Position numbers and translations under genes: made by a program
The notes under the pieces: model-generated
What the model was told of the DNA's origin: nothing
The model's input: the letters and a program-made list of their open reading frames with translations, nothing else
Database searches by the model: none
IMG/VR virus record: IMGVR_UViG_3300046535_000539
Coordinates: 1 to 24,343 of that record
Direction: 5' to 3' (one strand)
DNA: 24,343 bases
Source: a virus
Shown here: piece by piece, positions 87 through 3,950 of the stretch
Layout of the letters: every line of letters starts with the position of its first letter
Numbering within the stretch: position 1 is the first letter of the stretch

Positions 87-281
87 TCAGGCTCGCAGAT
101 CGTCAACGCCCTTCTTGGTGTCCAGCATCAGATTGACCAGACAGGCAACGGCACCGGGAATGCGTGTCCTGCCGCCGACCCAGTCTCTGACCGTGGTTTC
201 GTTGACGCCGATGGCGCGGGCGAACCCCATCTGGGTGGTTCCCAACAGCGTCAAGGCCTTGCTGAGTTGCCGCTGGGTCAT
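87..281 (-). CDS. Small helix-turn-helix (XRE/Cro-like) DNA-binding protein
   Basis: A 64-residue protein, probably a DNA-binding regulator. Residues about 12-40 fit an XRE-type helix-turn-helix: a helix, then [18 protein letters not shown], where the [11 protein letters not shown] part resembles a recognition helix, followed by [15 protein letters not shown] chose the ATG at 281 rather than the upstream one at 347 because it overlaps the recombinase stop as ATGA, a usual sign of translational coupling. It may control the recombinase or the nearby palindromic operators; that is inferred from position only. Such small Cro-like proteins are common in prophages and plasmids. The fold call is fairly safe; the target is unknown. 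Confidence 0.75.
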
Positions 282-946
282 GTCAGGCCCGCCTCTTGCG
301 GTGCCGCCAGCCTCTCGATCAGTCTGAGGACGGTCTTTGACGACCACTGACCGCCGGTCGAGGTCTTAGTGCCCGCCTCGTTCAAGGCCTGTGCGATCAA
401 CCGCGATGAGAAACCTTTTGCGATCAACGGTGCCACAACGTCCTTCAGGCCTTCAGCGAAGGCCACCGATGCGTCCCGGTTCTTGGCCGGTGTCGTCGGC
501 GATCCCAGCTTGACGCCGCGCTGCTTGGCCGCGCCAAGGGCCGCCTTGGTGCGCTCAGAGATCATGGTGCGTTCCTTCTCGGCCAAGGCCGCGTAGATGT
601 GCAGCATGAACGGATCGACGTTGAGGCCCAACTGGCAGACGATGAACGGCACGCGGCTACTCATCAGGCCCGAGATGAAGTGAACGTCGCGGGAGAGCCG
701 GTCGAGCTTGGCGACGATTACGGGGCAACCGAGTTCCTTGGCTGCGGCGAGCGCCGCCTTCAGTTGCGGGCGCTTGTCGAGGGCATCTGAACCCTTGCCG
801 GTTTCGACTTCGGTGAAGGTCTGCGAGATCAGGAAGCCTTCAGCGTCGGCGAAGCGCATCAGGGCTGAACCCTGCGCCTCGATGCCAAGGCCGGACTGGC
901 CCTGCATGGCGGTCGAGACGCGGATGTAGGCGATGGCGGGTTTCAT
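278..946 (-). CDS. Serine recombinase (resolvase/invertase family)
   Basis: A 222-residue serine recombinase that would cut and rejoin DNA through a covalent phosphoserine link. The N-terminal domain opens with [16 protein letters not shown], giving catalytic Ser11 with Arg9 nearby. LDRLSRD at 81-87 supplies the conserved arginines. The long E-helix region ([18 protein letters not shown], about 120-137) precedes a C-terminal helix-turn-helix at about 170-212 for site binding. The length matches resolvases and invertases rather than the roughly 500-residue large serine integrases. It starts six bases after an AAGGGGAAC element, under a promoter with a palindromic operator, and is coupled to the small regulator downstream. 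It could resolve dimers, invert a segment or integrate the element. No attachment site or invertible segment was recognised here. Confidence 0.93.
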
Positions 947-975: not shown

Positions 976-1004
976 GTATTAGGGTATTTCACCCTGCCAC
1001 GCAA
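976..1004 (-). promoter_or_regulatory. Recombinase promoter with palindromic operator in its spacer
   Basis: Read leftward: a -35-like TTGCGT (1004-999), a 17-base spacer and a -10-like TAATAC (981-976). The spacer holds most of the palindrome AGGGTGAAATACCCT (995-981), which would put a bound repressor on RNA polymerase's site. Almost the same palindrome lies in the promoter at 1990-2018. The boxes are read by eye against the sigma-70 consensus; the palindrome itself is exact. Confidence 0.55.
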
Positions 1005-1030
1005 TAGGCTTGCGAGGCTGTGGACAAAAG

Positions 1031-1054
1031 AAAAACCCCGCTAGATGCGGGGTT
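1031..1054 (-). terminator. Rho-independent terminator after the signal-peptide gene
   Basis: An eight-base perfect stem (AACCCCGC with GCGGGGTT) around a five-base loop. Leftward it runs into TTTTTCTTTT, a good U-tract. It starts a few bases after the stop at 1060 and closes the two-gene unit 1658-1060, separating it from the recombinase promoter. Confidence 0.85.
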
Positions 1055-1059
1055 CTGTC

Positions 1060-1365
1060 TTACTTCTGTTTGCCGGGCGGCTTGACCGGGACGTATTTGG
1101 GCGTTCCGAAGACCGGCGCGGTGAGATCGATCATGCTGCCGTAGCTGACCATCGAGCCGTTCATCTTGTAGGCCAGCATCAGCGCCTCGCGAACGAGGTC
1201 GTCGTCGGGACGCTGCGGCACGATGTACACCGTGCCGTCGGGATCGATGCAGGTGGTCCTGAAGCCTGCGGCGATGTCGCAGGCCGGGAACTTGGGCTGG
1301 GCGATGGCTGGTGATGCCAGCGTGATGACGATGAGTAGCATTTTCGGGCGCAAAAAGAGGGTCAT
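1060..1365 (-). CDS. Small exported protein of unknown function
   Basis: A 101-residue protein with a clear signal peptide: a basic start, then a hydrophobic stretch (MLLIVITLASPAIA at about 9-22) and a likely cleavage after Ala-Ile-Ala. The mature part of about 79 residues has two cysteines in CDIAAGFRTTC, which could form a disulphide, and a Lys/Pro-rich tail. Its ATG overlaps the stop of the upstream gene as ATGA, supporting the start at 1365; a second ATG at 1341 would also keep the signal peptide. A strong terminator follows at once. It may be an envelope-acting accessory (moron-type) product, but no family is recognised. Confidence 0.7.
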   Translation of the reverse strand: MTLFLRPKMLLIVITLASPAIAQPKFPACDIAAGFRTTCIDPDGTVYIVPQRPDDDLVREALMLAYKMNGSMVSYGSMIDLTAPVFGTPKYVPVKPPGKQK

Positions 1366-1658
1366 TGATGCACCACCGATCTGCCGCCCATCGTTGAGCC
1401 AATGATTTCGAAGGCCATATCCTTTGACAGCCCGATGTGCTCGTTGAGTTCGTAGGCCCAGCGGTGCGCTTCGTCATAGGTGGTAAAGGTCTTTCCCTCG
1501 ATGGGGCTGTAACCTTGTTCGTTGGCGACGGCCACGCCAAGGCAATAGCCAGCCCGAGAGACGGTGGCAACGAAGGCATAGACCTTGCCGTGGAACGCGC
1601 CCGCGACCGTCTGGTCGAGGATCGCGGCCTCGAGGTTCCGGTTGGTGATGTCAGTCAT
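1362..1658 (-). CDS. Hypothetical protein, 98 residues
   Basis: Not recognised. It starts at ATG 1658, four bases after an AAGGGGAAC element, and is coupled by an ATGA overlap to the exported protein downstream. The sequence looks like a compact alpha/beta protein: a strand-rich middle (GKVYAFVATVSRAGYCLGVAVANEQGY) followed by a charged helix (TTYDEAHRWAYELNEHIGLS). The later part has the same flavour as residues 18-45 of the protein at 1748-1951 (DEAHRWA against DAQAYADQAHRD), which hints at distant kinship but does not show it. The role is unknown; it sits with the accessory genes beside the recombinase. Confidence 0.75.
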   Translation of the reverse strand: MTDITNRNLEAAILDQTVAGAFHGKVYAFVATVSRAGYCLGVAVANEQGYSPIEGKTFTTYDEAHRWAYELNEHIGLSKDMAFEIIGSTMGGRSVVHQ

Positions 1659-1662
1659 TCTA

Positions 1663-1671
1663 GTTCCCCTT
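1663..1671 (-). promoter_or_regulatory. AAGGGGAAC ribosome-binding element
   Basis: Reverse-strand copy ending four bases before the ATG at 1658. It is preceded by GC, as are the copies at 22 and 1958. Confidence 0.65.
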
Positions 1672-1699
1672 GCGAGACGGGATGTCTCTACGGCCTCAA

Positions 1700-1726
1700 G
1701 CCGGGTAGCTGTTTCCAGCGCCCGGC
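1700..1726. other. GC-rich two-part hairpin between two leftward genes
   Basis: An outer stem GCCGGG (1700-1705) with CCCGGC (1721-1726) encloses an inner stem GCTG (1708-1711) with CAGC (1716-1719) around a TTTC loop. No T run follows on either strand, so it is not a standard terminator. It lies in the gap between the genes at 1951-1748 and 1658-1362 and could be a processing, pausing or transcript-end structure. Confidence 0.5.
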
Positions 1727-1747
1727 GTGAGTAGCGTGTGGGAGGGG

Positions 1748-1951
1748 TCAGACGACCTTACGGTAGAGGTCCGAGAGACGCATACTGCCGCCGCACCACT
1801 TGATCTCGATCACCCGATAATGGGTTGTGAGGTTGTCGCGGTGGGCCTGATCGGCGTAAGCCTGAGCGTCCTGAAGACGGTCGAACTCAGCCATGAGCGT
1901 GTCATTAGTTTCGCTGATGACTTTGAACGGGCGGCCAGAGTAGATGGACAT
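1748..1951 (-). CDS. Hypothetical protein, 67 residues
   Basis: Not recognised. A small soluble-looking alpha/beta protein: N-terminal strand (SGRPFKVISETN), an acidic helix (LMAEFDRLQDAQAYADQAHRD), a strand (HYRVIEIKW) and a basic C-terminus. The ATG at 1951 lies six bases after an AAGGGGAAC element, and the promoter with the palindromic operator at 1990-2018 fires toward it. It is the first gene of the leftward arm at the divergent junction, the place where phages often keep early or control genes, but nothing in the sequence shows DNA binding. Confidence 0.72.
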   Translation of the reverse strand: MSIYSGRPFKVISETNDTLMAEFDRLQDAQAYADQAHRDNLTTHYRVIEIKWCGGSMRLSDLYRKVV

Positions 1952-1957
1952 TGGGTA

Positions 1958-1966
1958 GTTCCCCTT
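1958..1966 (-). promoter_or_regulatory. AAGGGGAAC ribosome-binding element
   Basis: Reverse-strand copy ending six bases before the ATG at 1951. Confidence 0.65.
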
Positions 1967-1989
1967 GCGGGCCGGAATGGCCCTGACGG

Positions 1990-2018
1990 TTTATGGCACA
2001 GGGTGAATTACCCTGCAA
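1990..2018 (-). promoter_or_regulatory. Leftward promoter with palindromic operator at the divergent junction
   Basis: Read leftward: TTGCAG (2018-2013), a 17-base spacer, then CATAAA (1995-1990). The palindrome AGGGTGAATTACCCT (2000-2014) overlaps the -35 box and spacer. It matches the one in the recombinase promoter at 14 of 15 bases when oriented alike, and both promoters share TATTGC at the -35. One repressor probably serves both. Confidence 0.55.
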
Positions 2019-2023
2019 TAGGG

Positions 2024-2056
2024 TTGACGCAGGTTTCATGTGAAATAGCCAAAATA
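2024..2056 (+). promoter_or_regulatory. Possible rightward promoter for the small-gene train
   Basis: A good -35 hexamer TTGACG (2024-2029) faces right beside the palindromic operator. No convincing -10 sits at normal spacing; TAGCCA (2046-2051) at 16 bases and AAAATA (2051-2056) at 21 bases are the nearest candidates. Position between divergent genes supports a promoter; the boxes alone do not. Confidence 0.35.
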
Positions 2057-3941: not shown

Positions 3942-3950
3942 GTTCCCCTT
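3942..3950 (-). promoter_or_regulatory. AAGGGGAAC ribosome-binding element overlapping the terminase start
   Basis: Reverse-strand copy ending four bases before the ATG at 3937. Its complement contains the first two bases of the terminase TTG start on the other strand. Confidence 0.65.

Follow-up and report, generated by a model that had tools for sequence, protein, structure and literature searches.

Two palindromes in a phage genome fragment are probable operators of a small HTH protein encoded with a serine recombinase

The locus and its two leftward operons

The DNA analysed, here called the window, is the whole of a 24,343-base IMG/VR virus record, a linear fragment of a soil phage that carries near its left end two operons read leftward (Table 1). 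One begins with a small serine recombinase, whose Resolvase domain (residues 4-145) is accompanied by a C-terminal HTH-like part, and ends with a 64-residue HTH protein. Upstream of it, where a reading made from the sequence alone (the sequence-only reading) had proposed a second leftward gene, there proved to be a small operon of three ORFs extending from 1951 to 1060. To the right of the divergent junction lie small ORFs and the terminase, portal and capsid genes.

Table 1. Features at the left end of the window and their coordinates
Feature	Position	Strand	Details
64-residue HTH protein, proposed repressor	87-281	-	last gene of its operon; 4-base overlap between its start and the resolvase stop codon
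Small serine recombinase (222 aa)	278-946	-	first gene of the operon; Pfam Resolvase PF00239 4.9e-24; PHROG 125 DNA invertase 5e-32
Resolvase-HTH operon promoter (putative)	976-1004	-	TTGCGT (1004-999), 17 bases, TAATAC (981-976)
O1, proposed operator	981-995	-	reads AGGGTGAAATACCCT; inside spacer of resolvase-HTH promoter; exact match
Intrinsic-terminator-like hairpin	1032-1056	-	separates the two leftward operons
101-aa ORF	1060-1365	-	leftward cassette; 66-90% identical in L010 and L003
98-aa ORF	1362-1658	-	leftward cassette; PHROG 16631 (function unknown); 93% identical in L003
67-aa ORF	1748-1951	-	leftward cassette gene 1; AAGGGGAAC upstream
Leftward junction promoter (putative)	1990-2018	-	TTGCAG (2018-2013), 17 bases, CATAAA (1995-1990); kept in L003, L010, L014
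O2, proposed operator	2000-2014	-	AGGGTAATTCACCCT on minus strand, AGGGTGAATTACCCT on plus strand; covers -35 and spacer of leftward junction promoter
parS-like site	2032-2047		GGTTTCATGTGAAATA; 17 bases right of O2; 3 mismatches to TGTTTCACGTGAAACA

The genes of the leftward cassette vary between relatives of this phage, the loci of which are given L-numbers throughout. The 67-aa ORF matched no family in Pfam or PHROG and yielded no homologue in a search of the relatives, where other small ORFs take its place. The 101-aa ORF, which is kept in L003 and L010, is possibly an exclusion protein. None of the cassette ORFs matched an acr or other named anti-defence family in Pfam, NCBIfam, PHROGs or PADLOC. 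Two further observations concern this region: The N-terminus of the 101-aa ORF resembles a signal peptide (as judged by eye), and the motif AAGGGGAAC stands ahead of many early-region start codons (at 953-961, 1663-1671, 1958-1966, 2093-2101 and 3942-3950), in relatives as well as in the window.

Each of the two operons is preceded by a putative promoter. Because a consensus promoter scan of the window called neither of them, both being weak matches to the consensus, these assignments rest on conservation across relatives. The geometry of the resolvase-HTH promoter recurs, in the form TTGACC-17-TATnnT, in relatives that have other operators.

Paired palindromes in the window and its relatives

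The pattern AGGGT-N5-ACCCT occurs as an exact match at 981-995 and at 2000-2014, just where the sequence-only reading had reported it, and a search for further sites recovered no third copy in the 24,343-base record. Only 0.02 exact matches would be expected by chance, and not one of 100 dinucleotide shuffles contained two. When as many as two mismatches were permitted, the record showed no excess (4 found vs. 6.4 expected), so that the signal is confined to the exact pair. The central bases differ between the two copies, and the arms have centres that are 10 bp (i.e., one helical turn) apart, a spacing that fits a dimer occupying two successive major grooves.

The placement of both palindromes relative to the putative promoters is also as had been described. 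The first falls between the -35 and -10 elements of the recombinase promoter, within the 17-base spacer, with its last base serving as the first of the -10; the second starts within the -35 of the junction promoter and takes up most of the spacer. Both are indeed bordered by TATTGC, but this hexamer, previously taken as the -35, does not hold in that role: The hexamer situated two bases further in (TTGCGT and TTGCAG, respectively) is the one that gives a 17-base spacer.

Examination of related phages revealed the same arrangement in three diverged types (the window, L003-L006, and L010/L011), in each of which the AGGGT palindrome is present exactly twice, ahead of the resolvase operon and at the divergent junction. 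The resolvases of L003-L006 are 82% identical to that of the window and those of L010/L011 about 74-75%; between the three types the flanks diverge, whereas the 15-mer and the TTGC stay constant. The position of O2 is likewise occupied in L014. In both L014 and L264, the resolvase lies downstream of cassette ORFs and has no promoter of its own, such that these loci have the junction operator only; and in L003, the operator promoter is separated from the resolvase by an additional small ORF. The two sites of L008 have switched together to CGGGC-N5-GCCCG at the same two promoters. The retention of the pair in three diverged types and its concerted change in L008 support the earlier suggestion that one regulator controls both promoters.

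Scanning 2.9 million viral contigs for AGGGTGAAWTACCCT returned 72 stretches, and only six contigs contained two sites (3300046511_000419, 3300020016_000070, 3300020000_000075, 3300046724_000173, 3300047319_001001 and 3300046517_000575). These are precisely the six that encode a relative of the HTH protein at 87-98% identity. The combination of TATTGC with the palindrome was present in 19 contigs, which include none of the six carrying the HTH gene; most of these occurrences are due to chance.

A lone copy of AGGGTGAAWTACCCT, without a partner, was found in about 65 viral contigs, which might be taken to imply that the palindromes of the window arose by chance as well. We give this explanation almost no credence: No shuffled sequence contained a pair, and the conservation of position across three diverged phage types refutes it.

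Operator variants and the candidate binder

The 64-residue protein matches Pfam HTH_3 with an E-value of 0.0099 (below the curated cut-off) and YdaS weakly, and it is assigned to PHROG 4779, a regulator family, at 3.1e-7. Its AlphaFold model (pLDDT 94) adopts a HigA/Aca2-like fold, with structure matches to HigA2, Aca2, Aca10, Aca1 and 434 Cro; superposition on Aca2 gives a TM score of 0.81 and an rmsd of 1.1 Å. The protein is thus predicted to have an HTH fold of the XRE/HTH_3 type.

By profile search, about 45 of the 80 viral resolvase loci contain a member of this HTH family, in nearly every case as the next gene downstream of the resolvase. A 19-row alignment of the family was too variable for scanning the collection, and a 4-row alignment led to one new phage. 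Resolvase relatives in bacterial genomes are mostly without an HTH gene within 8 kb; some bacterial genomes in which the two occur together emerged from a profile search with the whole HTH family, and three Xanthobacteraceae loci (L386, L390 and L393) contain the resolvase, the HTH gene and a palindromic promoter. At L408, also from Xanthobacteraceae, a palindromic promoter is followed by one small ORF and then by the HTH gene, with no resolvase between.

Lineage-specific 15-bp palindromes (with AGGCA, AGGAA or CGGGC arms) occupy the same offset (TTG+9, spacer 17) at 10 loci. The form TTGACCnnn-[AGGCAnnnnnTGCCT] occurs in L044, L046, L051, L052, L055, L056 and L058, and the AGGCAATCATTGCCT variant in L025; other arms are AGGAA in L021, CGGGC in L008 and TGGGC in L061. 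An arm is repeated in at least two promoters in L008, L025, L039, L041 and L063, the numbers of copies per locus, where the available sequence is long enough, being two of AGGCC in L039 and in L041, two of CGGGC in L008, and four and three of the TAGGC type in L063 and L065, respectively. The promoter rule was applied by eye for some of these operators, and no clear palindrome could be made out at several HTH loci. A subgroup of the phages (L020, L049, L060, L028, L063 and L065) has, in addition, a second recurring palindrome, NCGTAATNATTACGN.

If the HTH protein reads these sites, changes in the operator would be expected to accompany changes in its recognition helix. Among 21 HTH-operator pairs, the two inner bases of the arm track the eight residues of the recognition helix (Mantel r = 0.41, p = 0.0002), as they do when the rest of the HTH protein is controlled for (partial Mantel r = 0.36, p = 0.0002), and the association persists among 18 pairs when the resolvase is controlled for (r = 0.32, p = 0.002); these p-values are indicative only, since the rule was already known when the operators were assigned. 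Arginine at position 7 of the helix accompanies C at arm base 5 in all seven cases, aspartate accompanies GT in three of three, and the phages having the RMVRNW helix (L021 and L264) both have AGGAA. Operator similarity correlates with resolvase similarity as well (r = 0.41), such that shared ancestry accounts for part of the covariation.

This last correlation, together with the location of one palindrome ahead of the resolvase gene, could be read as evidence that the serine recombinase itself binds the palindromes or recombines at them, whether to autoregulate or to invert the intervening 1 kb. For serine recombinases of this class, sites measure about 26-28 bp, with half-sites of 12 bp; here, however, just 15 bp are conserved, and the central bases differ between copies. 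Moreover, L063 has four promoter copies, the operator of L408 heads an HTH operon in which no resolvase intervenes, and the resolvase of L008, being 77% identical to that of the window and so near those of L010 (75%) and L014 (74%), is nevertheless associated with a different operator. On account of L408 and the short length of the sites, we rejected the recombinase as the binder of the palindromes, and consider a role for them as recombinase sites highly improbable.

It is only slightly more credible that the sites are bound by a regulator from the host or from another phage, with the HTH protein reading other DNA. Such a regulator would not account for paired sites that are confined to contigs carrying the HTH gene, or for an operator type that shifts from phage to phage along with the HTH recognition helix. 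The XRE-type protein, originally nominated as the binder for its proximity alone, now has support from its co-occurrence with the sites, from the covariation of operator and recognition helix, and from L408; judged from these sequence comparisons, the 64-residue HTH protein is probably the correct candidate.

The sites themselves, their conservation and concerted change, and their co-occurrence and covariation with the HTH protein are direct observations. The reading that we favor, and consider likely, is that both palindromes are operators of a single phage-encoded dimeric HTH autorepressor, the product of 87-281, which would act in the manner of an Aca protein and has a serine recombinase in its operon.

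Phage lineage, proposed regulation and likeness to known systems

The first 4 kb of the window have no DNA similarity to known phages. The portal is shared by the relatives at 63-95% identity, so that these phages constitute one lineage. Two of the loci, L264 and L418, come from the same contig (IMGVR_UViG_3300036846_000608), with the resolvase and the junction at opposite ends of its 42.7 kb, an arrangement suggesting that this genome is circular or permuted and about 42.7 kb in size. On this basis, the genome of these phages is probably about 43 kb, of which the window would represent about half. Tyrosine integrases, as open frames of 396-494 aa, are encoded by the contigs of L011, L021, L060, L065 and L264, so that the serine recombinase is not the only recombinase of these relatives, some of which are probably temperate. 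The idea that the serine recombinase belongs to a phage-plasmid lifestyle lacking integration is weakened by these integrases and by the occurrence of a ParA-type protein in only one of 20 contigs.

Because integrases are present in some relatives and a CI-like protein in almost none (a LexA/CI-like S24 protein was found in just one of 18 contigs), a serious rival to Aca-like feedback is that the HTH protein binds both operators as a lysogeny (immunity) repressor and forms part of a lysis-lysogeny switch. The differences among palindromes from phage to phage resemble immunity specificity, and one cassette protein starts like a secreted protein, as do some exclusion proteins. However, the HTH gene stands at the end of the very operon that it would repress, in the style of Aca operons, and the rightward genes lack an operator copy of their own; nor was a second divergent repressor or a Cro-like pair seen in the window. 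As the window probably comprises about half of the genome, a separate repressor could be encoded beyond it. We regard the immunity-repressor explanation as unlikely, albeit the strongest of the alternatives.

Under the Aca-like model, in which the activity of the promoters, their binding and repression by the HTH protein, the timing and the roles of the cassette genes are all inferred, both leftward promoters would be free upon entry of the DNA, and transcription would proceed through the cassette (1951-1060) and through the resolvase-HTH operon (946-87). As the HTH protein builds up, it would occupy the two operators, which lie between the -35 and -10 elements or overlap them, and thereby close both promoters, its own included; activation by the HTH protein in place of repression is conceivable. 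Such a circuit would combine the logic of an Aca repressor with a serine recombinase in the operon and with cassette genes that are freely exchanged among relatives, genes for which, by analogy with acr operons, an anti-defence role may be supposed.

The junction contains, in addition, a sequence resembling the chromosomal parS element TGTTTCACGTGAAACA, which is clustered in Bradyrhizobium-type genomes. There are three mismatches to this element in the window, two in L003 and none in L030 and L031. With at most one mismatch allowed, 15 of 18 related contigs have exactly one TTTCACGTGAAA each, against an expectation of about 0.08, and one of the 18 has a reversed control pattern; in viral contigs generally, at least 120 stretches contain the perfect parS 16-mer. 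Single parS-like sites (TTTCAYGTGAAA) are situated at 4553 in L003, 4864 in L008, 5136 in L010, 5235 in L021 and 9659 in L030. Within the window's lineage the site is located at the divergent junction, and since it is not at a fixed position with respect to the rightward start among relatives, a ParB site, proposed here from sequence likeness, would fit better than an operator. A fuller and more speculative version, which we put forward as improbable, is that a repressor of the Aca type, its operator retargeted, governs an exchangeable cassette of undescribed anti-defence genes, and that the junction also carries the phage's single host-type ParB site. If so, the phage would use host ParB at the junction, either to segregate or to silence its early region, beside its own repressor.

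If the Aca-like reading is right, the operator offers a means of finding the promoters targeted by this regulator in soil phages of alphaproteobacteria, and flags variable cassettes of small genes as promising places to look for anti-defence functions. With its many natural operator variants, the HTH family forms a ready data set for the code linking recognition helix to DNA, and the conserved single parS-like site makes phage use of host ParB testable.

Several known systems share elements with this locus. The recombinase of the window has the Resolvase domain of small serine recombinases of the invertase/resolvase type (PHROG 125), but more than half of its close phage relatives differ from these in that a small HTH gene follows. 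SGI1 is likewise a mobile element with parS-like sites, which are those of another replicon, and uses the ParB of a plasmid (PMC10954446); the window site, in contrast, is known from its resemblance to the chromosomal parS sequence of candidate hosts. The predicted HTH fold superposes on Aca2, HigA2 and MqsA (PDB 7ezy, 5j9i and 3fmy) at 1.1-1.8 Å, although Aca2 has an extra domain where the window protein consists of the HTH only, and HigA is paired with a toxin, none being recognised beside the HTH gene of the window.

The closest parallels are with Aca1 through Aca10. Most Aca proteins associated with acr genes are 60-65 aa long, and their inverted repeats lie within the core promoter (PMC9410906); that of Aca1 contains AGGCACAATGTGCCT (PMC9410881), which is close to the AGGCACGTCGTGCCT of L009. 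As in these systems (PMC9410906, PMC9410881), a single-HTH protein of 60-65 residues is here the last product of a short operon of small genes, and an inverted repeat (981-995 in the window, and likewise in relatives) is located inside the core promoter of its own operon; furthermore, the AGGCA-N5-TGCCT class of operator is common to Aca1 and to the present HTH family. Because a profile search against the PDB entries for Aca10, Aca1 and Aca2 gave no significant match (E 0.025-0.032), we describe the HTH protein as one that would work like an Aca and do not file it as a member. Unlike Aca1-10, this system has a serine recombinase that is co-transcribed, operators that vary from one family member to another, and a site that is shared by at least two promoters of one phage.
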